Of a stretch of DNA of 64,000 nt, positions 28,449-50,230 are shown piece by piece. Below the pieces are notes generated by a model. It was given only the letters and a program-made list of their open reading frames with translations, ran no database searches and was not told the origin of the DNA. The stretch covers positions 1-64,000 of the forward strand of contig CACCIO010000001.1 in assembly GCA_902546085.1 (NCBI GenBank), given 5' to 3'. Position numbers and translations under genes: made by a program. The DNA comes from an uncultured Pelagibacteraceae bacterium. Its GTDB lineage: Bacteria; Pseudomonadota; Alphaproteobacteria; Pelagibacterales; Pelagibacteraceae. Within the stretch, counting starts at the first letter, position 1, and every line of letters begins with the position of its first letter.

Positions 28449-29237
28449 ATGTCTGAAAATATTTTAGAGATTAATAATTTAAGTAAATATTTTGGTGGAT
28501 TAGCTGCAGTTTCAGATTGTTCAATAAAAGTTAAAAGAGGAACTATCACTGGTATCATTGGGCCAAATGGATCTGGTAAAACAACTTTATTTAATTTAAT
28601 TGCTGGAAACTTAAAATCCTCTGGTGGAAATGTTGTTTTTGATGATGAAAATATTACTGATGTTCCATCTTATGAATTATTTTCTAAAGGGTTGTTAAGA
28701 ACATTTCAAATTGCACATGAGTTTTCAAATTTATCTGTTTTAGAAAATTTAATGATGGTTCCAGGAAATCAATCTGGAGAAAAAATAATGACAGCATTAT
28801 TTAAACCAAGTTTAGTTGCACAAGAAGAGGCTGTGGTTAAAGAGAAAGCGAAAGAAGTTGTTGAATTTTTAAATTTAGGACATTTATCAAATGAGCTCGC
28901 TGGAAATCTTTCAGGCGGTCAAAAGAAATTATTAGAACTTGGAAGAACCATGATGGTTGATGCAAAATTAGTACTATTAGATGAAGTAGGGGCTGGAGTT
29001 AACAGAACTTTGTTAAAAGATCTTGGAACTGCAATAGAAAAGTTAAATAAAGAAAAAGGTTATACTTTTTGTATGATTGAACATGATATGGATTTTATTG
29101 GAAGATTGTGTGATCCAGTGATTGTAATGGCTGAGGGGTCAGTATTATTTGAAGGAAGTGTTGAAGAAGCAAAAAAAGATGAGAAAGTTATTGAAAGCTA
29201 TCTTGGAAGAGGATCAAAAATAAAGGATACAAATTAA
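28449..29237 (+). CDS. Second HAAT ABC system, LivG-like ATPase
   Basis: GPNGSGKTTLFNLIAGN, LSGGQKKLLELGRTMM. Confidence 0.92.
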   Translation: MSENILEINNLSKYFGGLAAVSDCSIKVKRGTITGIIGPNGSGKTTLFNLIAGNLKSSGGNVVFDDENITDVPSYELFSKGLLRTFQIAHEFSNLSVLENLMMVPGNQSGEKIMTALFKPSLVAQEEAVVKEKAKEVVEFLNLGHLSNELAGNLSGGQKKLLELGRTMMVDAKLVLLDEVGAGVNRTLLKDLGTAIEKLNKEKGYTFCMIEHDMDFIGRLCDPVIVMAEGSVLFEGSVEEAKKDEKVIESYLGRGSKIKDTN

Positions 29238-29944
29238 TGGCATATTTTGAAGGAATAGAAATGACAGGTGGTTATGGTAATGGTCCTGACATTATTAGTT
29301 CGTGTTCAGTAAATGTTGATAAAGGTGAAATAGTTTCTATTTTAGGTCCTAATGGAGCTGGTAAATCAACTGCCATGAAAGCTATGTTGGGCTTGTTGAA
29401 TTTAAAGTCTGGATCAGTAAAGATTGATGGTAAAGATATTTCAAAATTATCTCCTCAAGATCGAGTTAAGCAAGGTATTTCTTTTGTGCCACAGACTAAA
29501 AATGTTTTTGCGGGGATGACTGTTGAAGAAAATTTAGAAATGGGTGCATTTCTTGTTGAGGATGAAATCAAAAATATAATTGAGGAAATTTATGAATTAT
29601 TTCCAATTTTAAGAGAGAAAAGAAATCAGTTGGTTGGTGAACTTTCTGGAGGTCAAAGACAACAAGTAGCTCTAGGTCGAGCTTTAATGATTAAACCCAC
29701 TGTTTTAATGTTAGACGAGCCAACTGCCGGTGTATCGCCGATTGTGATGGACGAATTATTTGATCATATTGTAAAAGTAAAAAGAACAAACGTTGCTATC
29801 TTAATGGTAGAACAAAATGCAAAACAAGCCTTAAGCATATCAGATAGAGGCTACGTGCTAGTTACTGGAGTAAATCGTTATTCAGGAACTGGAAAAGAAT
29901 TATTAGACGATCCAAGAGTAAGAAGCTCTTTTTTGGGAGGGTAA
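29237..29944 (+). CDS. Second HAAT ABC system, LivF-like ATPase
   Basis: GPNGAGKSTAMKAMLGL, LSGGQRQQVALGRALM. Confidence 0.93.
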   Translation: MAYFEGIEMTGGYGNGPDIISSCSVNVDKGEIVSILGPNGAGKSTAMKAMLGLLNLKSGSVKIDGKDISKLSPQDRVKQGISFVPQTKNVFAGMTVEENLEMGAFLVEDEIKNIIEEIYELFPILREKRNQLVGELSGGQRQQVALGRALMIKPTVLMLDEPTAGVSPIVMDELFDHIVKVKRTNVAILMVEQNAKQALSISDRGYVLVTGVNRYSGTGKELLDDPRVRSSFLGG

Positions 29945-29945
29945 T

Positions 29946-30956
29946 ATGGATTTTGTAAATGCAATAATTCTTTTATTAAATTATATATTTATTCCTGCAT
30001 TAACTTATGGTTCTCAGTTAGCATTAGGTGCAATATTTGTAACATTAATCTATGGAATTTTAAGATTTGCAAACTTTGCGACTGGTGACATGATGTCTTT
30101 TGGAACCATGATGACAATATTGTTTACATGGTATTTTCAATCTTTAGGTGTTTCTTTAGGTGTTTTACCTACTGCTTTATTGGCTATTCCATTTGGAATA
30201 ATTTTCATGATTTTTTACATGCTTTTAATAGATAAGTTTGTCTTTAAGTATTATAGAAATCAAAAAAGCCCCCCAGTTCAATTTGCAATGGTGAGTATTG
30301 GAGTAATGTTTGTAACACAAGCAGTGGTAAGAATTATTATTGGACCTGGTGACAGAAGATTTTTCGATGGTGAAAAATTTATTATTAAAGCTCGTGAATT
30401 TAAGGAGATGACAGGTTTAAATGAAGGTCTTGCATTGAAATCAACTCAAGTGATAACCATTTTTGTAACAATAGTTTTAGTCTCTTTATTGTTTTGGTTT
30501 TTAAATAGAACAAAAACTGGAAAAAGTATGAAAGCTTATTCTGATAATGAAGATCTTGCTTTGTTGTCAGGTATTGATCCAAAAAAAATAGTTTTAGTTA
30601 CTTGGGTTATTGCTGGAATTTTAGCTACAATAGGTGGTGCTTTGTATGGTTTGGATAAAAGTTTTAAACCATTTACTTATTTTAATAATATGCTTCCTAT
30701 TTTTGCTGCTGCAATTGTTGGAGGAATTGGAAATCCATTTGGAGCTTTTTTAGGTGGATATGTAATTGCTTTTTCTGAAATATTGCTCACTTACGCATAT
30801 AAAAAATTCTTTATGTATATTTTACCAGAAAGTATGGAGCCAAGTAGTTTGGTTCAGTTATTATCCACAGATTATAAGTTTGCAGTCTCGTTTTCTATTC
30901 TTGTAATTGTTTTAATTTATCGACCTTCGGGAATATTTAAGGGGAAAGTATTGTGA
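29946..30956 (+). CDS. Second HAAT ABC system, LivH-like permease
   Basis: ALGAIFVTLIYGILRFANFATGDMMSFG. Confidence 0.9.
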   Translation: MDFVNAIILLLNYIFIPALTYGSQLALGAIFVTLIYGILRFANFATGDMMSFGTMMTILFTWYFQSLGVSLGVLPTALLAIPFGIIFMIFYMLLIDKFVFKYYRNQKSPPVQFAMVSIGVMFVTQAVVRIIIGPGDRRFFDGEKFIIKAREFKEMTGLNEGLALKSTQVITIFVTIVLVSLLFWFLNRTKTGKSMKAYSDNEDLALLSGIDPKKIVLVTWVIAGILATIGGALYGLDKSFKPFTYFNNMLPIFAAAIVGGIGNPFGAFLGGYVIAFSEILLTYAYKKFFMYILPESMEPSSLVQLLSTDYKFAVSFSILVIVLIYRPSGIFKGKVL

Positions 30957-32323
30957 GAAAAAACTTAAATGTAATTGCAGCATACAGTATCATGATGGTA
31001 CTCATTTTGATGGTTGGTATATTTCAGTCTTGGAACATAGCGTTATCAATATTTAATCTTTGTTTAATTTCTGCAGTTATGACAATGGGTGCGAATATTC
31101 AATGGGGATATGCTGGTTTAATTAATTTTGGAATTATGGGCTATACAGCTTTAGGTGGTTTAGCTGCGGTATTAATATCTGTAGATCCTGTCCAAGAAGC
31201 TTGGAGGGCTGGAGGTTTCGACATTCTAATGTCGTTGTGGCTGATAGTAGTAATGGTATTAGTTATACGCTTTGTTTTAAAAAGATTTGAAAAATCAAAA
31301 ATAAGAACGTACAGCATAGCTGCAATAATAATTTCAGGTATTTTACTTATCAGATTTTCTGCAGAGCCAGGCATAGAAGCAATTGAAGCAGTAGATCCAG
31401 CTAAAACTGGTTTCTTAGGAGGATTTGGATTACCAATTATATTTTCTTGGATAGTAGGAGCACTTTTTGCTGGTGGTTTAGCTTTTATAGTTGGAAAAGT
31501 TGCGCTTGGTCTTAGAGCAGATTATTTAGCTATCGCAACACTTCTTATTTCTGAAATTGTTATTGCAATTATTAAACATGAAGACTGGCTCACAAGAGGA
31601 GTCAAAAATGTTATTGGCTTAAAAAGACCTGCACCTTATGAAGTAGATCTTCAAACAACTGATTGGTTTATTAAATTAGTTGAAAAGTTTAATTCAGGAA
31701 AATTAAGTGTAATTGAGAATTTAGCTGATAGACAAGCTGCTTTAAATCAACTTGTTATTGAAGGCTCTTCAGTATTTGTAAAACTGTGTTATTCAGGATT
31801 ATTTTTAGTAGTAGTAATCATTCTTTTAATTTTAACTCAAAAGGCTCTTTATTCTCCATGGGGAAGAATGATGAGGGCAATTAGAGACAATGAGGAAGCT
31901 GCAAATGCAATGGGTAAAAATGTTGTTAAACAACATTTACTAATTTTTATTTTAGGCTCAGCAATTGTTGGAATTGCGGGTGCAATGCTTGTTACACAAG
32001 ATGGTCTATTTACACCGGGAAGTTATAGACCTATGAGATATACGTTTTTGATTTGGGTGATGGTAATTGTTGGAGGAAGTGGAAATAATTTTGGAGCAAT
32101 TTTAGGAGGATTTGTTGTTTGGTTTTTATGGATAGAAGCTGCACCAATATCATTATTCTTAATAAACTTTTTCACTGCAGGAATTCCTGAAACAAATGCA
32201 CTTAAAGCTCATTTAATTGAAAGCGTTCCTTATTTCAGATTTTTACTGATGGGATTAGGATTGTTGTTTATAATGAGGTATAGACCTAAAGGTATACTTC
32301 CTGAAAAAATAGAAATAAAGTAA
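30953..32323 (+). CDS. Second HAAT ABC system, LivM-like permease (456 aa)
   Basis: NIQWGYAGLINFGIMGYTALGG, LRADYLAIATLLISEIV, MRAIRDNEEAANAMG. Confidence 0.9.
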   Translation: MRKNLNVIAAYSIMMVLILMVGIFQSWNIALSIFNLCLISAVMTMGANIQWGYAGLINFGIMGYTALGGLAAVLISVDPVQEAWRAGGFDILMSLWLIVVMVLVIRFVLKRFEKSKIRTYSIAAIIISGILLIRFSAEPGIEAIEAVDPAKTGFLGGFGLPIIFSWIVGALFAGGLAFIVGKVALGLRADYLAIATLLISEIVIAIIKHEDWLTRGVKNVIGLKRPAPYEVDLQTTDWFIKLVEKFNSGKLSVIENLADRQAALNQLVIEGSSVFVKLCYSGLFLVVVIILLILTQKALYSPWGRMMRAIRDNEEAANAMGKNVVKQHLLIFILGSAIVGIAGAMLVTQDGLFTPGSYRPMRYTFLIWVMVIVGGSGNNFGAILGGFVVWFLWIEAAPISLFLINFFTAGIPETNALKAHLIESVPYFRFLLMGLGLLFIMRYRPKGILPEKIEIK

Positions 32324-33601: not shown

Positions 33602-34792
33602 TTATCTTTGTTTTTTAGTTTTGAATTTTCCACCTTTAATTTCTTGTTCTAAGAAAGAACCTTCAGCTTCACCAACACTAGTAAAAGTTACTCCAGTAGC
33701 ACCTTCGTAATTAATCTTTTTACCTTTTGCTAGTAAGTCTAAACCTTTCTTAAGTTCACCTGGATAAATTTTAGTTCCAGGAGCATTAGCAACATCCATT
33801 ACATTTTTTGCAATTGATGCTCTGTCAGCAGAGTTACCTGCTTGCATTGCAAGAACGATTAAAGCAGCTGCATCATAAGATTCACCTGTGTAAGGACCAG
33901 AAGCTTCTACACCTCCAGCTTTTGCAACTTCAGCAAATATACCTGCACCTTTACCAGTAGAACCTGGTAATGATCCAAATGATTTGCTTAAATCTTTTCC
34001 GAATGCATCAACTAAAGATTGACCAATCATACCATCTGATAAAATAAATCTATCAAACGCACCAGAGTCTAAAGAAGCTTGAATAATTCCTTTTCCTCCT
34101 TGGTCAAGATAACCAATAACTGCTACAGCATCACCACCAGCAGAAGCAAGAGTTGCTACTTCAGATGAGTAATCTGCTTTTCCATCTTCGTGAGCAGTTA
34201 CAGTTGTAACTTTAATACCATGAGCTTCAACTGCCGCTTTGTAAACATCAGCTAAACCTTTACCATAGTCATTGTTAGTATAAGTGATTGCAACACTTTT
34301 TACTTTTCTGTCTTTAGTTATATCAGCTAAAATTTGACCACCTCTAGCATCTGATGGAGCAGTTCTAAAGAAATACCCTTTGTCATCTAGAGTTGTTAAT
34401 CCTGGAGAAGTAGCTGAAGGTGAAATCATTACTACACCATTTGGTACAGCAACGTTAGTTGCAATAGCTCCAGTTACACCTGAACAGTCTGCTCCCATAA
34501 TTGCAGCTACACCACCTGAAATTAAACCTTCAGCTGCAGCTGTTGCCGCTGCTGAGTCAACACAAGTTGAGTCTGCTCTTACTGGCTCAATTTTTTTTCC
34601 ACCTAATAGTGAACCTGAATCAGATGCTTCTTTAAATGCAAGCTCTGCAGATGCAGCCATAGCTGGAGTTAGAGATTCAATAGGACCAGTAAATCCTAAG
34701 ATTATCCCCATTTTAATCGAATGTCCGTCTGCCATTACATTTGAACCAAAACTTGATACAAACATAAATACAGCGATAAATAGTTTTCTCAT
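33602..34792 (-). CDS. HAAT ABC substrate-binding protein (LivK-like), opposite strand to system 2 membrane genes
   Basis: Signal peptide; IKMGIILGFTGPIESLTPAMAASAELAFKEAS; SADCSGVTGAIATNVAVPNGVVMISPSATSPGL. Confidence 0.9.
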   Translation of the reverse strand: MRKLFIAVFMFVSSFGSNVMADGHSIKMGIILGFTGPIESLTPAMAASAELAFKEASDSGSLLGGKKIEPVRADSTCVDSAAATAAAEGLISGGVAAIMGADCSGVTGAIATNVAVPNGVVMISPSATSPGLTTLDDKGYFFRTAPSDARGGQILADITKDRKVKSVAITYTNNDYGKGLADVYKAAVEAHGIKVTTVTAHEDGKADYSSEVATLASAGGDAVAVIGYLDQGGKGIIQASLDSGAFDRFILSDGMIGQSLVDAFGKDLSKSFGSLPGSTGKGAGIFAEVAKAGGVEASGPYTGESYDAAALIVLAMQAGNSADRASIAKNVMDVANAPGTKIYPGELKKGLDLLAKGKKINYEGATGVTFTSVGEAEGSFLEQEIKGGKFKTKKQR

Positions 34793-34902: not shown

Positions 34903-36393
34903 TTACCTGATTGAGAAGGGGTCTAAAGAAGGTTCATCTGATGTATAGAACCAAGTTGTTTTTACTCTTGTATAGTCTTTAATCGAGTCAATTCCTGCTT
35001 CTTTTCCATATCCACTATCTTTAATGCCTCCAAATGGTGCAGATGGTGAAATTAATCGATAAGTGTTAACAAATGTTATTCCTGCCCTAATTGCTTTCGA
35101 AACTCTCATGCCTCTAGATAAATTGCTTGTATAAACTCCAGAAGATAATCCATATTGATTATCATTCATTTTAGAAATTACTTCTTCTTCCGTATCAAAT
35201 TTCATAACCGATAATACAGGTCCAAATAATTCGTTTTCTGCTACAGGCAGATTATGATTGTCACATTCAATAATTGTTGGGGGAAAGTAATACCCTTTAT
35301 TTGAGAAAGAATGTCTTTCACCTCCACACTTAATTTTTCCACCTTGATCAATTGTCTCTTTAATATTTTTTTCTATTACCTCTAATTGTTTAAAATTACT
35401 TAAAGGACCCATCTCTGTTTCTGGATCCATTGGTGCTCCAATTTTTATTTTTGATGCACGATTTGAAAGCTTATTTAAAAATTCATCGTAAATTCCTTTT
35501 TGCAAATAAAGTCTTGATCCTGCTATACAACTTTGTCCACTTGCACCAAATATACCTGCAGTAATTCCATTTATTGCATTTTCTTGGTCTGCATCATCAA
35601 AGACTGCAACTGGACTTTTTCCACCTAATTCTAAGCTTACTTCTGATAAATTTTCTGCTGAGTTTTTAATTATATGTCTTGCTGTTTCAGGACCACCAGT
35701 AAAAGCAACTTTTTCAACTAAGTTATGAGTAGTTAAACTTTTACCACAAGGATCTCCAAATCCTGTAATTACATTCACCACACCTTTAGGGATACCAGTT
35801 TTTTCAACTAATTTTGCAAATTCAAACAAAACAGCAGGTGCAAGTTCTGAAGATTTAATTACCACTGTATTACCCATAGCAAGTGCTGGTGCTATTTTAG
35901 TTGCGGTTAAAAACATTTGTGAATTCCATGGAATGATTGCAGCTATAACTCCTATAGGTATTCTTGTTGTTATTGCTTGAACATTTGGCTTATCGATTGG
36001 CAAAACCGTACCTTCAACTTTATCTGCCAAGCCAGCATAATAGTCGTAGTATTCTGCTATATAAACTGCTTGTTTTTTTGTTTCTCTGTAAAGTTTTCCA
36101 GTATCAATTGTTTCTATTTCTCCTAGCATTTCTGCATTCTCTCTCAATTGATTTCCAATAGCTCTTAAATATTTAGCTCTTTCTCTGGGAAGTAGTTTTG
36201 GCCATTCACCTTCGAATGCTTTTTGAGCAGCTTTTACTGCATTATCAACATCTTTAGCACTTGCTTCTGGAACGACTGCCCATGGCTCATTATGTTCTGG
36301 ATTTAGAGTTTCAAATGTTCTTTTACTTTCAGAGTCAACCCACTCTCCATTAATAAACATTTTATATTGTTTAAGTTTACTCATCTGATTCAA
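34903..36393 (-). CDS. Aldehyde dehydrogenase (NAD-dependent, BetB/AldA-like)
   Basis: VSLELGGKSPVAVF, GASGQSCIAGSRLY catalytic Cys; PFGGIKDSGYGKEAG. Confidence 0.93.
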   Translation of the reverse strand: MNQMSKLKQYKMFINGEWVDSESKRTFETLNPEHNEPWAVVPEASAKDVDNAVKAAQKAFEGEWPKLLPRERAKYLRAIGNQLRENAEMLGEIETIDTGKLYRETKKQAVYIAEYYDYYAGLADKVEGTVLPIDKPNVQAITTRIPIGVIAAIIPWNSQMFLTATKIAPALAMGNTVVIKSSELAPAVLFEFAKLVEKTGIPKGVVNVITGFGDPCGKSLTTHNLVEKVAFTGGPETARHIIKNSAENLSEVSLELGGKSPVAVFDDADQENAINGITAGIFGASGQSCIAGSRLYLQKGIYDEFLNKLSNRASKIKIGAPMDPETEMGPLSNFKQLEVIEKNIKETIDQGGKIKCGGERHSFSNKGYYFPPTIIECDNHNLPVAENELFGPVLSVMKFDTEEEVISKMNDNQYGLSSGVYTSNLSRGMRVSKAIRAGITFVNTYRLISPSAPFGGIKDSGYGKEAGIDSIKDYTRVKTTWFYTSDEPSLDPFSIR

Positions 36394-37162
36394 TAAAATT
36401 TTCGATAGTTAAATTTACATCATCAGCACACTCAATACCACAAAGATGTTTTCCATCTTTAATGATCTTTAATTGACTTTTAGAGATTAAAGCATTCAAT
36501 TCTTGAGACATTTTTACAGTTGAGCCAATATCGTATTCACCTGTCACAACTAGCGTATTAGCTTTAATTTTATTAAAATCTTCATCATTTTTATGATTAA
36601 CGAATAGCTCGTAAACCTTTAGAAAATTATTCATGTTATTTGCAGATAAAATTGAACTTATTTTTTCATATATTTCTGGATTATTTTCTAAATATTTATC
36701 AGTAAACCACCTCTTTAAAGCTTGCTTTGAAAGTTTTAAATCTTGTTTTGCCTGTTCAAACCTTTGATTAACAATTTTTTGTTGTTCTTCGGTTCTTTTA
36801 TAAATAGAACACAAAAGAGTTAATGTCTGTAAACATTCATTATGTTTGATTGCAAAATTTCGTGCAATTAAAGACCCTATAGAGAAACCTACAAGATGTA
36901 TTTTTTTTATTTTAAGATGGTCCAAAAGCTCGATAAGTTGTTTAGAAAAATCATCAAAACTTATTTCACCTTCTTCTAATGGTGATCTTCCATGACCTAA
37001 AATGTCGTAAGCAATATTTGAATGATAATTAAAAAATTCAAGCTGAGGTTGCCAAATTTCATGAGTTAGACCAACACCATGCACAAATACTATTGGGACT
37101 TCTTGATCTTTTTTATTGAATAAGTAATAGGTTCCTGAGGCAGTAGTTCCTGTAATCATCAA
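36377..37162 (-). CDS. Alpha/beta hydrolase (RutD/PcaD-like)
   Basis: VPIVFVHGVGLTHEIWQPQL; nucleophile elbow GFSIGS; C-terminal GKHLCGIE. Confidence 0.87.
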   Translation of the reverse strand: MMITGTTASGTYYLFNKKDQEVPIVFVHGVGLTHEIWQPQLEFFNYHSNIAYDILGHGRSPLEEGEISFDDFSKQLIELLDHLKIKKIHLVGFSIGSLIARNFAIKHNECLQTLTLLCSIYKRTEEQQKIVNQRFEQAKQDLKLSKQALKRWFTDKYLENNPEIYEKISSILSANNMNNFLKVYELFVNHKNDEDFNKIKANTLVVTGEYDIGSTVKMSQELNALISKSQLKIIKDGKHLCGIECADDVNLTIENFIESDE

Positions 37163-37165
37163 GAA

Positions 37166-37753
37166 TTATTTTGGCTCAATGCCCATTTCCTTCATATCTT
37201 GATATCTGTCACCAGTTCTTGCATGTGCTCTACCACTTGATGCCCCACCAATTGCAATAACCACCTCGTCATCGAAGGGTGCATCATGAATAGTAAATTC
37301 ATGAGTTAGGTAATATGGTCTCAATCCAGAGTCTGTTTTATGCATCATAGGAATTGCAATCTTTGATCCAGCTGGTCCTCTTGTGTTTGTAAAACTTAAA
37401 TATGAAGTTCCACCCACCGCATCTCTAAATTTATTTCCAAACCTTAAAGTATGAATAAAAGCTGAAGCATGTTCTATTTCACCGTTCAGTCCAACTACAC
37501 CTGCCTTACCATATGCTAATATTTTTTCAGGTGATCCTATTTCTTTTATCAATTCTGGAACAAGTAAATCACCTAGCTTTGGTGCAAGATCTAAAATAGT
37601 TGGTCTGAGATCTTCAACAAAACCCTGACCATGCCATGGATTTTTAAAAACTGCTGCTACTGATACCATTAAAACTGGTTCTTTCGCTTCTTTACCACCT
37701 TCAATAAAAGTTTTGTCGACAAATTTTGTAATTTTTCTTAATTCTAATTTCAT
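37166..37753 (-). CDS. DUF1185 / 'amino acid synthesis' family protein
   Basis: PWHGQGFVEDLRPTILDLAPKLGDLL, YGKAGVVGLNGEIEHASAFIH, RAHARTGD typical of the family. Confidence 0.85.
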   Translation of the reverse strand: MKLELRKITKFVDKTFIEGGKEAKEPVLMVSVAAVFKNPWHGQGFVEDLRPTILDLAPKLGDLLVPELIKEIGSPEKILAYGKAGVVGLNGEIEHASAFIHTLRFGNKFRDAVGGTSYLSFTNTRGPAGSKIAIPMMHKTDSGLRPYYLTHEFTIHDAPFDDEVVIAIGGASSGRAHARTGDRYQDMKEMGIEPK

Positions 37754-39453
37754 TTTTTTACTCTATGTTTGAAACTATCTCTTCTAAAACTGTATAATGC
37801 TTTTGGATCTACATCAACATCAATCACAGATGGCTTATTTGATTTAATTGCTGCTCTTACAGCTTCACAAATCTCAGAAATTTTTTTAACTTTAAAACCT
37901 TTTGCACCATAAAGTTCCGCAACTTTATCAAAGGATGGACTGGTAATATCCGCACCTAAATATCTTTTTCCAAAAAAATCTTTTTGATAAGCTTTTTCAG
38001 CACCCCAACTTTTATTATTCATCACAATAGTTGTAGTATTAATTCCATATTCAACAGCAGTGCTCAATTCAGATATTGTCATGCCAAAACCCCCATCACC
38101 CATAAGACTAACGACTGTTTTTTTAGGTTTTGCAACCTTGACTCCAAGACCACATGCAAATGAAAAACCAACTAAACCAAAATCCAATGGAGTAAATAAT
38201 GAAGGAGGATCATAATATTCTAAAGCATCTGTAGCCTGCAAACATAACGTTCCAGCATCTAGAGTAATTGCTGAGTTTCTTGGTAGCACTTTTCTTAATT
38301 GTTTAAATAGTCCTTTTGGTTGTATAGGAAAATTTGGACCTAAATTTTCTTTATTTCTATTTATCAAATATTCTTTTCTCTCTTTTAAATAAGAGTTAGT
38401 CCAATCTTTAACATTTAATTTAATTTTCTCTTTTTTAACCTCTTCGTAAAGTTGTTTAGTTGCAGTCGCAGCATCCGCATGTATCTTTACTTTTACAGGA
38501 AAATATTTTCCAAGCATTGTTTTTTCTAGTTCAATTTGAATTATCTTTGCTTTTTTATTTATATTTTCATAGGAGTAAAAAGTTGAATTAAATCCTAAAC
38601 GTGTTCCAATTGCTAAAATGACATCTGCATTTTTAACTAATCTTGATGCTACAGGATTTCCTCTAGGACCCATTTGTCCCGCATTTAATTTATGACCAAA
38701 AGGAATTGCATCTCCATGACCTGCTGCTGTAACAATAGGTAGGTTGCATAGTTCAGCTAACTTAATTACCTCTTTGTATTTAGAATTATACTTAATTCCT
38801 GCTCCAACAATAATTACCGAACATTTTGAAGATCCGATTAATTTTGCAGCTTTTTTGATATTTTCCTTATTTCCTTTTTGTTTGCTTACATTTGTGAACG
38901 ATGGTCTTTTAGTATTGATATTATAATTGTTTGAAGCTGCTAATATATTTCTTGGTAAATTTACACAAACAGGTCCTTTTCTAGGTTTCATTGCCAAACT
39001 AAAAGCATCACTCATAATTTTTGGAATTATTTTTGAATTTTTTATAGTCCAAGTTTTTTTTGTAATAGGTGTAAACAAAGACTGTTGATCTAAACCCTGA
39101 AATGCATCTTCCATTTTATCTTTAGTTGAATATGAACCTGCAATTGCAACAACTGGAGAAAAGGCTGCTTTTGCTTGAGCGACCCCTGTAACTAAATTAG
39201 TAGCACCAGGTCCGTTTTGGCCTGCAATAATTACCCCAGGTTTATTTGAGGCTCTTGCATAACCATCAGCCATATGTGTGCCAGTTCTTTCATCTCTGAC
39301 ACCAATAAATTTTATACTTTTCTCATGATAAAGAGCATCAAACATTTCCATTGTTGCTGAACCAATAAGTCCAAAAACATGTTTTACTCTTTCTTTTTTT
39401 AATGATTGAACAGCAGCTTGTCCGCCGCTAATTCTTTTTCGTTTATTATTCAC
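37750..39453 (-). CDS. Thiamine-diphosphate-dependent enzyme, acetolactate synthase superfamily, Xsc-like
   Basis: HVFGLIGSATMEMFDALY, GQNGPGATNLVTGVAQAKAAFSPVVAIAG, GDGGFGMTISELSTAVEYGINTTTIVMNN ThDP motif. Confidence 0.88.
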   Translation of the reverse strand: MNNKRKRISGGQAAVQSLKKERVKHVFGLIGSATMEMFDALYHEKSIKFIGVRDERTGTHMADGYARASNKPGVIIAGQNGPGATNLVTGVAQAKAAFSPVVAIAGSYSTKDKMEDAFQGLDQQSLFTPITKKTWTIKNSKIIPKIMSDAFSLAMKPRKGPVCVNLPRNILAASNNYNINTKRPSFTNVSKQKGNKENIKKAAKLIGSSKCSVIIVGAGIKYNSKYKEVIKLAELCNLPIVTAAGHGDAIPFGHKLNAGQMGPRGNPVASRLVKNADVILAIGTRLGFNSTFYSYENINKKAKIIQIELEKTMLGKYFPVKVKIHADAATATKQLYEEVKKEKIKLNVKDWTNSYLKERKEYLINRNKENLGPNFPIQPKGLFKQLRKVLPRNSAITLDAGTLCLQATDALEYYDPPSLFTPLDFGLVGFSFACGLGVKVAKPKKTVVSLMGDGGFGMTISELSTAVEYGINTTTIVMNNKSWGAEKAYQKDFFGKRYLGADITSPSFDKVAELYGAKGFKVKKISEICEAVRAAIKSNKPSVIDVDVDPKALYSFRRDSFKHRVKK

Positions 39454-40619
39454 GAAACTTTTTTTACTTCAGTATCAAAATCATCTTGGAAGTGAGGCAT
39501 AACTTTTTCTGTAAAGAGTTTTATACTTTTCATACAATCTTTATGCTTCACACCTGGAAAATTAGACCAAACTTGTAAATTTTGTAAATTGAGTTCAGAT
39601 TTTAATTCATGAATTTTATCAATCACATATTCTGGTGTTCCAAATAACATATTTCTTTTATGTAAAAATTCATAATTTAACAAATCCAATTTACCTTTTG
39701 TCTCTGGTAATTCTTCACCTGGATCCATATGATTTCCTAAACCTCTCCAATGACAAACCCATCTCATATAATTTACCATATGTTCACCAGCTTTCTCTTT
39801 TGCTTCTTCCATCGTATCTGCAACGAACATATCTCTTACAAGAGACACCCCTTCTCCAAGGGGTATATTTTTCTTCGTTACTTCTGATCTTTTGTTTTTA
39901 TAAGCTTCAAACTTTGGCTTCAAAGCTTTTACTGTTGGTATCCACATGATAACATTGATATTATTTTCAGCAGCCCACTCAATCGATCTAATTCCATCAA
40001 CTACTTGATGAATTGGAGGGTGTGGCTGTTGATATGGCTGAGGAACAACACTAATTTTTTTCATAGTACTGTCTTCCATATTCATAAATTCTTCACTAGG
40101 AGGACTCATATCATGCTGCCAAACATAATTTGGGGATGGATAAGTATAAAATTCTCCTTGGTGACTGAAAAATTTTTCACTCCATGCTTTCTTCAATACT
40201 TCTAAAGTCTCAGCAAATAATCTAAAATTTTTAGCCTGATCTTTTAAGTCAGCTTCTTTATTTAGATTAATTGCTTCTCTTCCATAAATTCCTCTTGCCA
40301 CACCTACTTCAACTCTTCCTTTAGAAAGCTGATCTAGTGTAGCTATATCTTCAGCTAATCTTATTGGATTATGAAAAGTAATAACGTTTGCAGCTTGGCC
40401 TATTCTAATATTTTTTGTTCTTGCAGCTGCATCTGCACCCATCATTAATGGATTTGTACAAGACTCCATTCCCTCGTGATTGAAGTGATGTTCTGTAAAC
40501 CAAATTGAATTCCATTTGTTTTGATCACAGTATTCTGTGATTTCTTTAGTTTCATCTAATAATTGATGATAAGGTTTGTGTGTCCAGTTTGTGGTGTTAC
40601 AAAAATAACCAAATTTCAT
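39450..40619 (-). CDS. Luciferase-like (LLM-class) flavin-dependent monooxygenase
   Basis: WFTEHHFNHEGMESCTNPLMMGADAAARTKNIRIGQAANVITFHNPIRLAEDIATLDQLSKGRVEVGVARG; start MKFGYF preceded by AGGAGG. Confidence 0.93.
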   Translation of the reverse strand: MKFGYFCNTTNWTHKPYHQLLDETKEITEYCDQNKWNSIWFTEHHFNHEGMESCTNPLMMGADAAARTKNIRIGQAANVITFHNPIRLAEDIATLDQLSKGRVEVGVARGIYGREAINLNKEADLKDQAKNFRLFAETLEVLKKAWSEKFFSHQGEFYTYPSPNYVWQHDMSPPSEEFMNMEDSTMKKISVVPQPYQQPHPPIHQVVDGIRSIEWAAENNINVIMWIPTVKALKPKFEAYKNKRSEVTKKNIPLGEGVSLVRDMFVADTMEEAKEKAGEHMVNYMRWVCHWRGLGNHMDPGEELPETKGKLDLLNYEFLHKRNMLFGTPEYVIDKIHELKSELNLQNLQVWSNFPGVKHKDCMKSIKLFTEKVMPHFQDDFDTEVKKVS

Positions 40620-40724
40620 AAAGCCTCCTTTAAAAATTAATTTAAAGACGACCGATCCCACTTTCGTAAATTTTTGAATTTAACGACGAGTTATGTATCG
40701 CTTTATATGTAAACCTTATAATTA

Positions 40725-41693
40725 CTAACGTTGATATTCAATAAATTTCTTTAAAGATTTGTTAAGAAATTTCTCATAAATAAGACCATTATTTTTGAAT
40801 TTGCTTCCATTTAAAAATGATTGGTTCATTTTGAAATCATATGAAGGTTCGAAGAAAAAAGGAACAGAGAGCCTCTTACTTTTATTCCACAAAACCCTAT
40901 GATTGGTTGCTTTAAATTTACCTTTACTTAAATATTCTAAAGCTCTTCCCGTGTTTACTACTAAAGCATTTTTATTAAATGGTACATCATACCATTTTTT
41001 GTTTTTTCTATTTTGTACTTGTAATCCACCTTTTCTATCTTGGTAGAGAACTGTAAATATTCCACTATCAACATGAGTTTCACATCCAAGGGCTACTCCA
41101 TCTTGTTTTGATATTTCTACTGGTTTAGTTTGATTTGGGTAATAATTAAATCTTAATGTGCTTAAAGTTTTTAATCTTGAAAAAGCTACAGTAGAAATCT
41201 CAGGATTTTTTTTATTAAGTTTTATTAAACTTTTAAACAATATTTCACTCAATCTATAGATGTTATCAAAATATTTGTTTAGAATTTTAATTGAGCTTTT
41301 ATTAAAACACATGCCTAGATTAATAAACTCTATGTATTGATTTTTGAGATTTGAGGAATATTTTTTAGTTACTTTTAAATCACCTATATCAAGACCTTCT
41401 TTTCCATTAACATCGTTAGGAAAATATCCTCTGTATAAATTTTTATTTTTTTTATTCCATTTTTTAGGTGCTAATCTTCTTTTCGTGCTGTCTGGTAAAT
41501 TAAAAAATTTATTAGCAACTTCACATGTTTTTTTTATTTCTTTCTGATTAATTCCATGTTCAGTAATTTGAAAAAATCCTACATTAACACAAGCTTTTTC
41601 AATTTCTTTAATTGTTTTAAATGCATTTTGAGTTTCAAAATTATTTTTTATTAAAGATGAGATATTAATTGTTGGTATAAAGTTCTTGCTCAT
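40725..41693 (-). CDS. 2OG-Fe(II) oxygenase, isopenicillin-N-synthase-like family
   Basis: DIOX_N start IPTINISSLI; ETHVDSGIFTVLYQD (HxD); distal His and RLSVPFF (RxS). Confidence 0.88.
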   Translation of the reverse strand: MSKNFIPTINISSLIKNNFETQNAFKTIKEIEKACVNVGFFQITEHGINQKEIKKTCEVANKFFNLPDSTKRRLAPKKWNKKNKNLYRGYFPNDVNGKEGLDIGDLKVTKKYSSNLKNQYIEFINLGMCFNKSSIKILNKYFDNIYRLSEILFKSLIKLNKKNPEISTVAFSRLKTLSTLRFNYYPNQTKPVEISKQDGVALGCETHVDSGIFTVLYQDRKGGLQVQNRKNKKWYDVPFNKNALVVNTGRALEYLSKGKFKATNHRVLWNKSKRLSVPFFFEPSYDFKMNQSFLNGSKFKNNGLIYEKFLNKSLKKFIEYQR

Positions 41694-42643
41694 CTTCTAA
41701 CCGGTGTTTCTGTTGCAATAAATTGATCTCTAACTCTCTCTCTCATATAAATATAAATTCCAGCTGCTATAATACACGCAACACCAATAAATGTTCTGGT
41801 CGTTGGTACCTCATTAAATAAAAAGTAGCCAGGTATCATAGACATAATTATTAATGAGTACTCAAACAAAGAAACAACAGATGGTGATGCAACTATATAT
41901 GCTGAAAAAATACAAACAAAAGCTATTGATGCAGCAAAACCAAAAAATAAAATAAATTTCCATGTATATTCAATATTTGAAAACCATTCTCTAAAGATGA
42001 ATTGTATTGTTGGATCAAAGTTTGGATTATTTAGCTGACCACTTCCCATAAAAAAATACAAAATTACACACAGCAATATTGCAATTAGATAAAAGTAATA
42101 AAGTTGGGTGTTAACATCATCTTTATCGGATGTATATTTAGTGATTGTCATAGAGGCAGCATAACAAAATGCACAAAAAACTGGTAAAAGACTTCGATAT
42201 TCAAAGTCTGAAAAATTTGGATTTAAGACTATAAAAACGCCAATAAAACCAAAAACAATTGCTGACCACCTTCTAATACCAATAGTTTCTTTTAAAAATA
42301 ACTTTGCAAATATTGATACGAAAAAAGGGGAGGAAAAAAATAAAGCATTTGCTGTTGCTAGAGGCATAAAAGTTAATGAGATAAAAAACGCTGAAAAAGC
42401 AATAAAATGTAAAACCACTCTTAATATTGTTAAAAAAGGATAGTGAGTTTTAAGAGAGACTTTTTGTTTTCTTAATTTTATGTAACCAAAAAGCAAAATT
42501 GCTGCAACAAAATATCTTCCAAAAAATATTTCATATAAAGCTGCTTTTTCAAAAATAAATTTAATTAAAGCATCCTGCATTGCAAAAAATGTCATTGCAG
42601 TAATTATTAGAAGTATACCTTTTGAATTATTATTAGCGCTCAT
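41690..42643 (-). CDS. EamA/DMT family transporter
   Basis: Duplicated EamA TM architecture; ATGA-type overlap with oxygenase gene. Confidence 0.87.
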   Translation of the reverse strand: MSANNNSKGILLIITAMTFFAMQDALIKFIFEKAALYEIFFGRYFVAAILLFGYIKLRKQKVSLKTHYPFLTILRVVLHFIAFSAFFISLTFMPLATANALFFSSPFFVSIFAKLFLKETIGIRRWSAIVFGFIGVFIVLNPNFSDFEYRSLLPVFCAFCYAASMTITKYTSDKDDVNTQLYYFYLIAILLCVILYFFMGSGQLNNPNFDPTIQFIFREWFSNIEYTWKFILFFGFAASIAFVCIFSAYIVASPSVVSLFEYSLIIMSMIPGYFLFNEVPTTRTFIGVACIIAAGIYIYMRERVRDQFIATETPVRR

Positions 42644-43146: not shown

Positions 43147-44172
43147 TTATGATCTTGTTAATGAAGACTGTAATTCTTGATTTGAAATGTATCCCTTTAC
43201 ATTTCCACTTTTATCAACCACTTCACAATTTGAATCAGAACAGACAATTTTTGGTAAAAAATCTTCTATAAATTCATCTTCATTTACTTTTATTAAGTTT
43301 GATTTATCTATGTCATTTGCTTGATCAGCAGTTTTCATAATAATCTTCGCCTTGATAACTTTTGCTCTGTTTACATCTTTTACAAATGCTTTTACATAAT
43401 CATCAGCAGGGTTCATAATAATTTCCTCTGGGGTTCCAACTTGAACTAATTTTCCAGAATTTAATATCCCGATGTGGTCTCCCAATCTTAATGACTCATC
43501 CAAATCATGTGTAATAAATACAATAGTTTTTTTTAGTTGTGCTTGAAGATCAATCAATTGTTTTTGCATATCACTTCTAATCAGAGGATCTAGAGCGCTG
43601 AAAGCTTCATCCATTAACATTATGTCTGTATCTGTCGCTAATGCTCTTGCTAAACCAACACGTTGCTGCATTCCTCCTGATAACTGAGCAGGGTATTGAT
43701 TTTCAAAACCAGTTAGACCAACTGCATCAATTTTTTCCATTGAGATTTTGTTTCTTTCATCCTCAGTTTTTCCTTGCATTTCTAGTCCGTAACCAACATT
43801 TTGAATTACTGTTTTATGCGGGAATAAACCAAATCTTTGAAACACCATGCTCATTTTATGTCTTCTAAATTCAATAAGTTTATCTTTATCAAGTGACATT
43901 ACATTCGTGCCCTCAACTAAAATTTCACCATCAGTTGGATCGATTAGTCTATTTAAATGTCTTATTAGTGTTGATTTTCCTGATCCTGATAAACCCATAC
44001 AAACAAAGGTTTCTCCTTCTTCAATTTTAAGAGAAACATTATCTAATCCAACGGTATGACCAGTTTGCTCTAAAATTTCGTCTTTCGTTGCACCATCTTT
44101 TACCATTGGCAGCACAGAAGAAGGGTTGTTTCCAAAAATTTTGTATACGTTGTTGATCTCAATTTTTGACAT
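43147..44172 (-). CDS. Glycine betaine/proline-type ABC ATP-binding protein (ProV/OpuAA-like), no adjacent permease or SBP
   Basis: GLDNVSLKIEEGETFVCMGLSGSGKSTLIRHLNRLIDPTDGEI, LSGGMQQRVGLARALA. Confidence 0.9.
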   Translation of the reverse strand: MSKIEINNVYKIFGNNPSSVLPMVKDGATKDEILEQTGHTVGLDNVSLKIEEGETFVCMGLSGSGKSTLIRHLNRLIDPTDGEILVEGTNVMSLDKDKLIEFRRHKMSMVFQRFGLFPHKTVIQNVGYGLEMQGKTEDERNKISMEKIDAVGLTGFENQYPAQLSGGMQQRVGLARALATDTDIMLMDEAFSALDPLIRSDMQKQLIDLQAQLKKTIVFITHDLDESLRLGDHIGILNSGKLVQVGTPEEIIMNPADDYVKAFVKDVNRAKVIKAKIIMKTADQANDIDKSNLIKVNEDEFIEDFLPKIVCSDSNCEVVDKSGNVKGYISNQELQSSLTRS

Positions 44173-44297
44173 GATGTAATGTTCTAACAGTTACAATCAT
44201 CATATGTAAAACAAATATTATACAACTTATAATTGTTTTAAGAAATAACAGTTGTATTTATTTGCTTTTGCTTATTTTTTAAATAAAAATTTTATAT

Positions 44298-45029
44298 ATG
44301 GCGCAAACAGATAAAGATGTGCGACTAGAGTTGTCTGCTCTCTATAGAATTTTGCATATGTACGGCATGACAGACCTTGCTAATCAATGTGCCGGAGCAA
44401 GATCTGCTGAAGATAAGAATTGTTCTTTTGTTCATCCATATGGAATGTTTTATGAAGAAATTACTGCTTCATCTTTAGTTAAAATTGATCAAAACGGAAA
44501 AAAATTAGACTCAGATGGACCTTGGTTAAACGATGGATGTATTAATCTTGCTCAATGGATTTTTAATAAAAGAGACGATGTAAATTTTTATGTTCATGGA
44601 CATGCCAACGATGTGATGGCAGTTGGTGGCACTAAAGAGGGTTTAATGTATCTCTCGCAGGCTGCAGTTTATTTAAATCATCTTGTTGGATATATTGATT
44701 ATGAATTTGTTGAGGACAAAGAATTTGGAAGCAAGTTTGAAAACCTAATTAGCAAACACGATATTTTGATTACTAGAAATCATGGATATTATACAGTAGG
44801 AAAAACTGCTGCAGAAGCATTTTTCAGAGCTTATTATCTAGAGCAAGCATGTTCAGTTCAGGTAAAAAACCTTGCAATGGGGTTAAACAAACATGAAATA
44901 GACAAACAGAAAGCTGCGTATTTTTGGGAAAACATGAGTGACTCTGATGATTATAATTATGATGGAAAAACGGAGTGGGCTGCTTTATTAAGAAAACTAG
45001 ATAGAGAACATTCAAATTATAAAAATTAA
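44298..45029 (+). CDS. Class II aldolase/adducin family protein
   Basis: HGHANDVMAVGG and RNHGYYTVGKTAAEAFFRAYYLEQACSVQ motifs. Confidence 0.9.
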   Translation: MAQTDKDVRLELSALYRILHMYGMTDLANQCAGARSAEDKNCSFVHPYGMFYEEITASSLVKIDQNGKKLDSDGPWLNDGCINLAQWIFNKRDDVNFYVHGHANDVMAVGGTKEGLMYLSQAAVYLNHLVGYIDYEFVEDKEFGSKFENLISKHDILITRNHGYYTVGKTAAEAFFRAYYLEQACSVQVKNLAMGLNKHEIDKQKAAYFWENMSDSDDYNYDGKTEWAALLRKLDREHSNYKN

Positions 45030-46180
45030 TGGAACAAAACTTTACAATCACAAATATAACTAAAAATTCTACAAATTTAGAAGTTGACTGGAGCGATGGA
45101 AAAAAAAGTAAATTTAATTATTTATGGCTAAGAGACAATTGTCCAACTGCACATGACAAAGACTCACGTCATAGAATGTTTAATATTTTAAAAGTATCAA
45201 ACAAAATTAATCCAAAAAAATTTGCAGTAAATAATGAAGGCAAGCTTGAAATTGAATGGAGTGAAGGTGACCATATAAGTTATTATGACCAAAATTGGTT
45301 AAGAGAAAACTGCTATACGATAAAAAATAATTTAGAATACAAATCTCCATATCAACTTTGGGACAACTCTTTACAAAATGACCTGAAGTCAATTGAGATT
45401 GAACATGATGAAATTATGAGTTCATATGAGGGACTTGTCAGATGGTTAGAGCTCTTACACCACACTGGAATTGCTATAGTTAAAAATGCTCCAACTGAAA
45501 ATAATTCTGGCTTTAAAATTTTAAACAGAATTAGCCATACTAGAGAAACTTTTTTTAAAACACCTTTTGAAGTAATTAATATTCCTAAACCAAATAATTC
45601 TGCTTACACAGCACATGCCCTAAGAAATCATATGGATTTACCATGGTTTGAAACACCACCTGGTTATCAATTTCTTCATTGTTTAGTTAATTCTGCAACA
45701 GGAGGAGACTCATCCGCTGTAGATGGCTTTGCAGTTGCAGATTATTTAAGAAAAAATGAGAAAGAAATATTTGATACGCTAGTAAACGTTAATTTAAAAT
45801 TTAGAGATATGGATTATACACAAGAGTCTGTTAGAAGTTATTACGCACCCGCGATATCTCTAACAAAAGATAATGATTACCATGATATTCGGTTTAGCGT
45901 TGCAACTATGGATGCTTTAGACTGTCATCCTGATTTGATGGATAAAGTTTACAAAGCTCATCATCGATTTGGAAATTTAATCCATGACGATCAATTCCAG
46001 ATTAAATTTAGATTAGGACCAGGTGATATTTTTTCTTTTAACAATAGACGATTATTACACGGCAGAACTGAATATGATCCAAACTCAGGACATAGACATT
46101 TACAAGGTTATTACATGGATCGAGATGAAATTATTGGGAGACTAAGATATTTAAAAAATTCTGTTAACTCCAACCAGTAA
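45029..46180 (+). CDS. Gamma-butyrobetaine / trimethyllysine dioxygenase family (TauD-like with N-terminal DUF971-type domain)
   Basis: DGKKSKFNYLWLRDNCPTAHDKDSRHRMF N-domain; NHMDLPWFETPPGYQFLHCL (HxD); FNNRRLLHGRTEYD. Confidence 0.88.
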   Translation: MEQNFTITNITKNSTNLEVDWSDGKKSKFNYLWLRDNCPTAHDKDSRHRMFNILKVSNKINPKKFAVNNEGKLEIEWSEGDHISYYDQNWLRENCYTIKNNLEYKSPYQLWDNSLQNDLKSIEIEHDEIMSSYEGLVRWLELLHHTGIAIVKNAPTENNSGFKILNRISHTRETFFKTPFEVINIPKPNNSAYTAHALRNHMDLPWFETPPGYQFLHCLVNSATGGDSSAVDGFAVADYLRKNEKEIFDTLVNVNLKFRDMDYTQESVRSYYAPAISLTKDNDYHDIRFSVATMDALDCHPDLMDKVYKAHHRFGNLIHDDQFQIKFRLGPGDIFSFNNRRLLHGRTEYDPNSGHRHLQGYYMDRDEIIGRLRYLKNSVNSNQ

Positions 46181-47594
46181 CATTCTTTACTTCAAGATAT
46201 TCCTCAAGGCCCCAAACACCCCCTTCTCTCCCATTACCTGATTGTCTGTAACCACCAAATGGAGTTCCGGCATCTGCTCCATTTCCATTTATGTAAACAC
46301 ATCCAGATCTTAATTTTTTAGCAACTCTGTGTGCTTTCTCTCTATTTTCAGTTTGCAAATAATTTCCGAGACCATAAGAAGTATCATTCACAATATTGAC
46401 TGCCTCATCTTCAGTCCCAAATGGAATTATAGATAATACAGGTCCAAAAATTTCTTCTTTAGCAATTCTCATTTCATTAGTTACATCTGTAAATATAGTT
46501 GGTTTGATGAAGTACCCTTTGTTCAAACCGTTTGGTAACTCAGGTCCACCTGCTGCAAGAGTTGCGCCTTCAGAAATTCCACTTTCAATAAGATTTATAA
46601 TTTTATCATATTGAATTTTAGAAATTACTGGTCCTATATGATCTCCTTTTTTTGAAGCTTGATCTACTTTAATTTTGTTTGCTTCATCAACAGCTTCTTT
46701 AACAGCTCTTTCGTAAATTGATTTTTCAACAAGCATCCTTGTTGGTGCATCACAAGATTGACCAGAATTGCTCATTACATTTCGAATGCCATCTCTTACT
46801 GCATCTTTATAACTATCAGCAAAAACAATATTTCCACCTTTTCCACCTAATTCAAGACAAACTCTTTTAATTGTTTCAGCAGCATTTTTTGAAATTAATC
46901 TTCCTGCTCTTGTTGAACCTGTGAAAGAAACCATATCAATATCAGGGTGGCTTGAAATGTGGGTTCCCACTCCTGCACCGTCTCCATTTACCAAATTAAA
47001 TACACCTTTTGGAAAACCTACTTCATCAATCATTTCTGCAAATAGCATTCCAGAAATAGGAGCAATTTCTGATGGTTTTAAAATCATTGTACATCCAGTT
47101 GCAAATGCAGGAACGACTTTTAAAGCAATTTGATTAATTGGCCAATTCCACGGTGTGATTAATCCACAAACTCCAATTGGCTCATAATAGATATGATTAT
47201 TTGATTTATTATCAAAGTGTTCATCAAATTTAAAATTTTTTAATCTTAAAATAAAATCATCTAAATGATCTTTCCCTGAAGCTGTTTGAACATCTGTTGC
47301 CCAATCCATTGGTGCACCCATTTCAAGAGAAATAGCCTCAGCCATTTCATTAAATCTTTTTTTATAAACTGATGATAATTTTTCAAGTAAACTGAGCCTT
47401 TCTTTCTTGCTAGTTTCTTTCCAAGTATTAAAGGCATTTTTTGCTGATTTGACAGCTAAATCTGTATCCTCTTTTGAACCTAAAGAAATAACAGCAAACG
47501 GATCTTCATTGCATGGATTAATGACTTCAAGATCATTTTTTTTAATTGGATCAACCCACTGACCATTTATGTAAAATTTTCTTTTATCTAACAT
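46164..47594 (-). CDS. Aldehyde dehydrogenase
   Basis: CLELGGKGGNIVF, SNSGQSCDAPTRMLVEKS; FGGYRQSGNGREGG. Confidence 0.93.
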   Translation of the reverse strand: MLDKRKFYINGQWVDPIKKNDLEVINPCNEDPFAVISLGSKEDTDLAVKSAKNAFNTWKETSKKERLSLLEKLSSVYKKRFNEMAEAISLEMGAPMDWATDVQTASGKDHLDDFILRLKNFKFDEHFDNKSNNHIYYEPIGVCGLITPWNWPINQIALKVVPAFATGCTMILKPSEIAPISGMLFAEMIDEVGFPKGVFNLVNGDGAGVGTHISSHPDIDMVSFTGSTRAGRLISKNAAETIKRVCLELGGKGGNIVFADSYKDAVRDGIRNVMSNSGQSCDAPTRMLVEKSIYERAVKEAVDEANKIKVDQASKKGDHIGPVISKIQYDKIINLIESGISEGATLAAGGPELPNGLNKGYFIKPTIFTDVTNEMRIAKEEIFGPVLSIIPFGTEDEAVNIVNDTSYGLGNYLQTENREKAHRVAKKLRSGCVYINGNGADAGTPFGGYRQSGNGREGGVWGLEEYLEVKNVTGWS

Positions 47595-47614
47595 TTTTTA
47601 TCTTAACACATTAA

Positions 47615-49483: not shown

Positions 49484-50230
49484 ATGAATTCAACAAAAAT
49501 AGATCCTAAATACATTACGAAATCTAATCCAAGAATTGGACTTATTGCGCTTGCAAGTGATTTTATGATTGAAAGAGATTTTATAAACGTAATTAAAGAT
49601 AGAGAAGTTGATTTTTTTGTAAATCGTATCGAATGCTACAACCCACTAACAAAAGAAAATTTGATCAAAATGTCGAGCAAAGTTACTGAGGTAACAAAAG
49701 ATATATTGCCTGATCAAGATATCGATTGTGTTGTTTATGGCTGTACATCTGGAACAATAGCTGCCGGTTATGAATCTATAGAGAAAAAAGTAAAAGCTGC
49801 AAAACCTATGGCAGAAGTGACAACTCCAAGTACTGCTGCAATCAAAGCTTTAAAGAAATTAAATATAAATAAAATATGTCTATTTACACCTTATAGCAAA
49901 AAACTTAACGATGAAGTTTTGGAATATTTTAAAGGCGAAGGATTTGTAATTACTTCAAATTCTTACTTTGATATAGAGGCTGATTACGATATTGGAAAAG
50001 TTGATCAGAATTATTTATATAATGTTCTATCTGAAATAGATTTAAATGGGGCAGAGGCACTCTTTGTTTCTTGTACCGCTTTACCAGTATTACCAATAAT
50101 TGATAAATTAGAGAAAAAATTAAATACTACAGTTTTATCTAGCAACCAGGCTTTAATTTGGGATACGCTTGTTAAAATAAACAAAAATAATTCTGTCGAA
50201 GGATTTGGTAAATTATTTAAAGAAAATTAA
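49484..50230 (+). CDS. Asp/Glu racemase superfamily, maleate isomerase/EutA-like
   Basis: VVYGCTSGTIAAGYE and LFVSCTALPVLPII: two catalytic-Cys motifs of the AMDase/EutA family. Confidence 0.83.
   Translation: MNSTKIDPKYITKSNPRIGLIALASDFMIERDFINVIKDREVDFFVNRIECYNPLTKENLIKMSSKVTEVTKDILPDQDIDCVVYGCTSGTIAAGYESIEKKVKAAKPMAEVTTPSTAAIKALKKLNINKICLFTPYSKKLNDEVLEYFKGEGFVITSNSYFDIEADYDIGKVDQNYLYNVLSEIDLNGAEALFVSCTALPVLPIIDKLEKKLNTTVLSSNQALIWDTLVKINKNNSVEGFGKLFKEN

Follow-up and report, generated by a model that had tools for sequence, protein, structure and literature searches.

A conserved leader RNA precedes a trigonelline-like gene core in SAR11 bacteria

Introduction

The closest described system to the locus studied here is the trigonelline (tgn) pathway, reportedly described for Acinetobacter baylyi ADP1 by Perchat et al. 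2018. We compared it, through a cluster of Acinetobacter sp. PK01 (L043), with a minus-strand operon of a SAR11 bacterium and with the leader RNA that the operon contains. The operon lies at 34903-42643 of the window, that is, the whole 64,000-nucleotide stretch of contig CACCIO010000001.1 (uncultured Pelagibacteraceae bacterium) that was analysed. Both systems cluster a luciferase-like flavin monooxygenase (LLM), a TgnC-type aldehyde dehydrogenase (ALDH), an alpha/beta-hydrolase and a DUF1185 protein. They differ in that the window LLM is of another clade, no flavin reductase or succinate-semialdehyde dehydrogenase (SSADH) gene is adjacent, the long form of the operon has an extra thiamine diphosphate (ThDP) enzyme, and an RNA leader stands in place of a GntR-type regulator. 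Our reading, to which we give a probability of roughly 0.6, is that the locus forms an operon by which SAR11 breaks down a small N-heteroaromatic compound, and that this operon would follow the tgn scheme with a ring-opening oxygenase of its own, a further ThDP enzyme in the long form and a translational ON riboswitch.

TgnF, which has an accessory role in the trigonelline pathway, belongs to the DUF1185 family (PMC7913881). For the RNA, the nearest relatives in kind are the SAR11 translational riboswitches, namely SAM-V and the candidates of Meyer et al. 2009 (PMC2704228), which likewise are compact leaders that occlude the Shine-Dalgarno sequence (SD) through alternative pairing. Unlike these, the leader described here has no Rfam 15 match by sequence or model and precedes different genes; the 2009 motifs, set apart by description, are found before genes other than those of this operon (PMC2704228).

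Results

Structure and covariation of the leader RNA

Alignment of the region upstream of the LLM gene revealed a conserved non-coding element at 40623-40705 (minus strand), within a gap of 105 nt. Its aptamer-like domain consists of P1 as the outer helix, an inner CUC/GGG helix and the P2 hairpin; ACAUAACUC and GGGAUC are invariant and the P2 hairpin loop is variable; in the sister family P2 is formed by CCAA/UUGG instead of UCGU/ACGA. The window leader scores 84.8 bits with covariance model R1. In an alignment of 34 diverse examples fitted to R1 (A10), 91.6% of cells are paired and 8 pairs are changed on both sides, against 3.3 in shuffled alignments (0/500), and slid structures, used as a control, gave 33-51% pairing. 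An independent MAFFT alignment (A8) gave 6 both-side changes against 2.0 in shuffles (1/500).

The alternative hairpin, which hides the SD, has a fold of -17.2 kcal/mol (z -2.4) and forms in 45/45 leaders examined. All 9 of its 9 pairs are kept in 15/15 sequences (100% paired), 5 of the 9 show compensatory changes on both sides, and its covariation score is 0.434 as compared with 0.151+-0.031 after shuffling (0/500). The element has two properties expected of a riboswitch, a conserved structured leader with covariation and an expression platform exclusive with the aptamer-like domain. From its sequence, it looks like a ligand-activated translational ON riboswitch, and is a candidate orphan.

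We considered that an extended N-terminus of the LLM, starting at an in-frame GTG (40661), might be the cause of the conservation, and rejected this explanation because of in-frame stops in L028, L031, L039, L131 and L278. Since the leader frame holds stops in several relatives, the start is ATG 40619, and GTG 40661 falls within the leader RNA. The gap upstream of the LLM, the widest in the operon, is 105 nt with the ATG start (63 nt with GTG); an earlier note on this DNA had its size right and missed the conserved structured RNA inside.

Distribution of the leader RNA

The leader RNA stands immediately upstream of the LLM gene in 80/80 SAR11 LLM loci, in short-form and long-form operons and in the sister family alike. 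It occurs in 112/328 Pelagibacterales genomes (48/151 of the high-quality ones), and the gene downstream of it is the LLM gene in 43 of the 44 hits examined, the remaining one being an orphan. The other genomes among 289 sampled across the class gave no match, nor did the tgn and Rhodobacteraceae-type clusters searched. When the window region and eight relatives were compared with Rfam 15, no family reached its gathering score, and a comparison of viral DNA with the RNA core gave a single match of 8.4 bits, judged to be chance. The leader RNA is previously uncatalogued and is a more novel part of the locus than the enzymes. The window operon holds no regulator gene, while in most of the Rhodobacteraceae-like operons there is a LysR-like gene in divergent orientation.

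Orphan leader RNAs without an LLM gene are L267 (G943:C2:1791-1866) and L236 (G028:C38:2886-2961). The latter seems to be a remnant left when the operon was lost or moved, because the arylmalonate-decarboxylase-like gene adjacent to it flanks the short operon in L028.

Conservation and extent of the operon

All seven minus-strand open reading frames reported in the earlier note were found, Pfam agrees with the families given there, and the tight packing it described is real, the spacing inside the operon being -17 to +3 nt. The 80 best LLM loci from named genomes are all from Pelagibacteraceae. In these SAR11 loci, where contigs are long enough, the order EamA, 2-oxoglutarate (2OG) oxygenase, LLM, ThDP enzyme, DUF1185, alpha/beta-hydrolase, ALDH and then a liv-type substrate-binding protein is kept. 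Co-conservation, on which the earlier note made its proposal depend, is borne out by order and gap sizes across the 75-81 SAR11 loci compared. Over the same loci, ratios of nonsynonymous to synonymous substitution (dN/dS) relative to the window are 0.03 for LLM and DUF1185, 0.05 for ALDH, 0.09 for EamA and the ThDP enzyme, 0.11 for the 2OG oxygenase and 0.15 for the hydrolase. The seven-gene arrangement is conserved far above chance. Catalytic motifs are likewise conserved: Glu55 and GDG..NN in the ThDP enzyme (alignment A2), HxD..H and RxS in the 2OG oxygenase (alignment A5). Homologues of DUF1185 have solved structures (2qtp, 3byq); an AlphaFold model of the LLM made from SAR11-only rows reached a pLDDT of 36.

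Four lines of comparison divide this arrangement in two. Short-form operons of LLM, DUF1185, hydrolase and ALDH occur in the same genus (L025, L028, L030, L031, L033); the sister family has LLM, ThDP enzyme, DUF1185, hydrolase and ALDH without EamA and 2OG oxygenase (L037, L039, L040); L212 and L213 have the EamA-2OG pair and no LLM core; and in L214 the 2OG oxygenase is separated from the LLM by foreign genes that take up about 5 kb. On this comparative basis we define the core as LLM, optional ThDP enzyme, DUF1185, hydrolase and ALDH, and EamA plus 2OG oxygenase as a separable module whose border is the 105-nt gap. The earlier note's single catabolic operon of seven genes is real and conserved as a set of genes, and does not hold as one pathway: EamA and the isopenicillin-N-synthase-like (IPNS-like) 2OG oxygenase, which it had taken as steps alongside the other genes, were rejected as such, since L212 and L213 have the pair and no core and since, in L214, a 5-kb insert divides the pair from the LLM.

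The module border may be an insertion hot spot (L108, L214/L107). The insert of about 5 kb between 2OG oxygenase and LLM spans L214/L107:3127-8254, and in L108 copies of the leader RNA at 8443-8504 and 9954-10019 flank an inserted gene on both sides.

Kinship with tgn clusters

In the PGAP-annotated tgn cluster on a plasmid of Acinetobacter sp. PK01, genes for DUF1185 and an alpha/beta-hydrolase lie directly upstream of tgnA, tgnB and tgnC. The window proteins share 55% (DUF1185), 52% (ALDH with TgnC), 33% (ALDH with SSADH), 30% (hydrolase) and 23% (LLM) identity with this cluster; over the tgn clusters as a whole the values are 55-58% for DUF1185, 51-52% for ALDH, 25-30% for the hydrolase and about 24% for the LLM. 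The ALDH tree groups the window enzyme with TgnC and with the ALDHs of L142 and L163, away from the 'th' ALDHs. The locus has a TgnC-type ALDH and a TgnF (DUF1185) protein; its LLM, at about 24% identity and in a separate clade, is not a TgnB orthologue. In the LLM tree, the SAR11 enzymes and that of L142 form a clade apart from TgnB and the Rhodobacteraceae-type LLMs, with branch support of 100/100, and the assignment of the LLM as a TgnB orthologue was rejected on this ground. No TgnA flavin reductase was found within the window operon.

A bridge between the two systems is provided by L142 (genome G250), which has flavin reductase, LLM, DUF1185, hydrolase and ALDH genes in a row; its LLM and DUF1185 are 54% and 62% identical to those of the window, and its ALDH is TgnC-like (60%). 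Relatives of the ThDP enzyme with 62-63% identity come from ten other, Rhodobacteraceae-like alphaproteobacteria (L163, L173, L186-L193), where they are the last gene of ALDH-LLM-DUF1185-hydrolase-ThDP operons, although no DUF1185 was recovered in L193. Most of the operons come with a divergent LysR-like gene, some with a flavin reductase. These operons share their gene families with the window and differ from it in that their LLM falls on the TgnB/'th' side of the tree and the leader RNA is unmatched. ThDP relatives at lower identity (44-47%; Ruegeria pomeroyi megaplasmid, L183, L194, L195) are not beside LLM or DUF1185 genes, and a viral scan with the ThDP enzyme gave no match.

Across L142, the Rhodobacteraceae-like operons and the tgn clusters, DUF1185, hydrolase and TgnC-type ALDH thus behave as a cassette that has been used repeatedly, with LLMs and with downstream enzymes of differing kinds. 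Further examples carry added CoA-type enzymes (L198) or an added tautomerase (L199). These comparisons make the core a variant form of the tgn route, the oxygenative opening of an N-heteroaromatic ring, rather than trigonelline catabolism proper, since its LLM belongs to a clade other than that of TgnB. The earlier note had proposed, among other options, oxygenative opening of an imported N-heterocycle, with hydrolysis and aldehyde oxidation to follow; this is tgn chemistry and, with DUF1185 and ALDH of tgn type, is broadly right. Its remark that the combination was not recognised as characterised holds for the LLM and the extra ThDP step, and gives way for the core, which parallels tgn.

Two other loci were observed in passing. 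L161, in a 1.4-Mb alphaproteobacterial genome (G291), has a true TgnB (55%), TgnC, hydrolase and DUF1185 without an adjacent flavin reductase. At L046:8417-9576, tandem DUF1185 genes of another subgroup lie beside 6-hydroxynicotinate-reductase-like and molybdenum hydroxylase genes, an apparent pyridine context.

Discussion

From the observed gene order, conservation and homology, together with the conservation of the RNA and the covariation of both its exclusive helices, we infer the following ligand and biochemical steps. The substrate probably enters via the adjacent liv-type ATP-binding cassette (ABC) transporter. The substrate or its product would bind the leader RNA and stabilise P1, which would capture the GUCGUCUUUA strand otherwise paired with AAGGAGG; the SD would then be free and translation of the LLM and downstream genes could start. 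Using reduced flavin mononucleotide (FMNH2) together with O2, the LLM would cleave the ring and so give an N-formyl aldehyde or lactol. Oxidation of the aldehyde would fall to the TgnC-like ALDH, the hydrolase would split the enamide with release of formate and amine, and the ThDP enzyme would cleave or decarboxylate the keto or aldehyde product that results; DUF1185 would be an accessory protein. The LLM, ALDH and hydrolase steps are assigned by their likeness to tgn.

Several observations weigh against this scheme. As to the supply of FMNH2, no flavin reductase of PF01613 was found in the six genomes of the genus searched, one of them complete; FMN_red (PF03358) occurs in some relatives and was not found in the window's 80%-complete genome. 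The LLM clade also includes members outside DUF1185 clusters and, because of this and of the identity of about 24%, the LLM reaction may differ from that of TgnB. The hydrolase is only 25-30% identical to TgnD. The step given to the ThDP enzyme is a guess, and the enzyme is missing from the short-form operons. When single leaders were shuffled, SD pairing was reached in 23/200 cases for the window, 58/200 for L037 and 74/200 for L039, a poor separation; the case for the RNA rests on covariation, since single-sequence shuffles are indecisive in leaders so rich in A+T.

The leader element could instead be under the control of a protein or of the ribosome, or be a recombination site, as the inserts between 2OG oxygenase and LLM that fall at the element (copies on both sides in L108, 5-kb insert in L214) and the orphan copies in G028 and G943 might suggest; compensatory changes in both mutually exclusive helices, the pairing of the SD with the element's 3' strand and its fixed position directly before the LLM in short forms, long forms and the sister family make this unlikely. 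We consider it improbable that the locus is a plain SAR11 trigonelline operon, in which LLM, ALDH, hydrolase and DUF1185 would act as TgnB, TgnC, TgnD and TgnF. The identical set of families, the identities of DUF1185 (55-58%) and ALDH (52%) and the bridge cluster L142 speak for it, and the 100/100 branch between the LLM and TgnB speaks against it, as do the window's want of an adjacent reductase and a ThDP step that trigonelline breakdown does not require; moreover, small genomes can hold a TgnB orthologue, because L161 (1.4 Mb) carries one at 55%. Hardly credible, finally, is the degradation of sulfonates or other organosulfur compounds by an SsuD-like desulfonating LLM and an Xsc that releases sulfite, one of the readings offered in the earlier note. 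The LLM and Xsc-like families are present, and the ThDP enzyme shares its superfamily with Xsc and matches over the full length; however, it reaches 389.7 bits where TIGR03457 sets its cut-off at 676.4 and 405.3 where PRK07525 sets it at 620, the LLM scores 30.9 of 518 bits with the SsuD model, relatives of the ThDP enzyme belong to DUF1185/TgnC operons, and a sulfonate transporter was not seen at the locus. The note's pyrimidine reading fails on similar grounds: the Rut pathway also combines an LLM (RutA) with an alpha/beta-hydrolase (RutD), but the scores are 19.6 against 498.3 bits for RutA and 73.5 against 238.5 for RutD, and Rut has neither ThDP enzyme nor DUF1185. Both readings were rejected on these curated cut-offs.

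It is also conceivable, if on balance somewhat unlikely, that the locus is, in SAR11 form, the homarine operon of Ferrer-Gonzalez et al. 2026 (Nat Microbiol 11:1531), in which case the enzyme part would already be known. A conserved homarine pathway has been reported, to go by the title cited in PMC13390433, and the chemistry may be common to both, with an isomeric N-methylpyridine carboxylate as its target. Surface particles of the ocean are rich in homarine, which makes up as much as 3% of particulate carbon, and steric reasons are held to make it an unlikely substrate of TgnA/TgnB (PMC8269262), which would fit the different LLM found here. Nevertheless, no result here links the window LLM to homarine, and a ThDP enzyme is not obviously required where Mgd participates (PMC13390433).

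Returning to an N-heteroaromatic operon with its own LLM, our best guess at the substrate would be an N-methylpyridine carboxylate, homarine- or trigonelline-like. Among the ThDP-type clusters, L193 has genes of a betaine ABC transporter nearby (an OpuAC protein with a ProV-like ATPase), a neighbourhood that weakly favours a betaine substrate. We propose, tentatively and at somewhat less than even odds, that the SAR11 order alone has a new class of riboswitch, which senses a betaine of pyridine type (homarine or trigonelline, for instance) or its breakdown product and switches on an undescribed LLM/ThDP branch of N-heteroaromatic catabolism. The leader RNA makes the substrate question testable, in that the ligand bound should be the substrate or a product of the operon. 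SAR11 is a dominant ocean bacterium, among the most abundant there, and carries the operon and RNA in many genomes; should the operon open pyridine-type osmolytes like homarine, it would act as a sink for marine carbon and nitrogen from a pool that is large and poorly traced.

Features and neighbouring genes

Table 1. Positions of the operon genes, the two parts of the leader RNA and the adjoining transporter genes in the window
Feature	Position	Strand	Remarks
livG-livF-livH-livM ABC transporter genes, candidate importer	28449..32323	+	convergent with operon; conserved SAR11 neighbour
Liv-type substrate-binding protein, candidate importer component	33602..34792	-	Peripla_BP_6; usual ALDH neighbour in SAR11
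Aldehyde dehydrogenase, TgnC type (Aldedh)	34903..36393	-	52% to annotated TgnC, 33% to SSADH of same cluster
Alpha/beta-hydrolase, TgnD-like in place and fold	36377..37162	-	Pfam; 25-30% to tgn-cluster hydrolases
DUF1185 (PF06684), TgnF-type accessory protein	37166..37753	-	216 bits; 55-58% to DUF1185 of tgn clusters
ThDP enzyme, acetolactate synthase/Xsc superfamily, optional core member	37750..39453	-	three TPP_enzyme domains
LLM flavin monooxygenase, probable ring-opening enzyme	39450..40619	-	Bac_luciferase PF00296, 150 bits
Alternative hairpin GUC-UCUUUAAA/UUUAAAGG-GGC	40623..40652	-	uses P1 3' strand; covers Shine-Dalgarno AAGGAGG (about 40624-40630)
Leader RNA, aptamer-like domain	40643..40705	-	P1 UAAAG-CGAU/GUCG-u-CUUUA, P2 UCGU/ACGA, inner helix CUCG/UGGG
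2OG-Fe(II) oxygenase, IPNS/DIOX_N type	40725..41693	-	DIOX_N and 2OG-FeII_Oxy (Pfam)
EamA-family permease, partner of 2OG oxygenase	41690..42643	-	Pfam

A second block adjoins the operon at 43147-48556 and encodes a ProV-like ATPase, a class II aldolase, a gamma-butyrobetaine-hydroxylase-like protein, an ALDH and a beta-hydroxyacid dehydrogenase. It lies beside the operon in about a quarter of the SAR11 loci, occurs also without the LLM core (L213), and looks like a block for carnitine or betaine catabolism. Beyond it, at 49484-51399, are genes for arylmalonate-decarboxylase-like (EutA-like) and M24 creatinase/ectoine-hydrolase-like proteins, followed by a polyamine-type ABC transporter. On the other side of the operon, 26732-28443 holds CsiD, which belongs to the glutarate 2-hydroxylase family (461 bits); a pyrroline-5-carboxylate (P5C)-reductase-like protein and the liv ABC genes come next, an arrangement conserved near the operon in SAR11. 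Ketol-acid reductoisomerase (ilvC), at 1497-2518, is split into two open reading frames that overlap in different frames, probably by an assembly frameshift.

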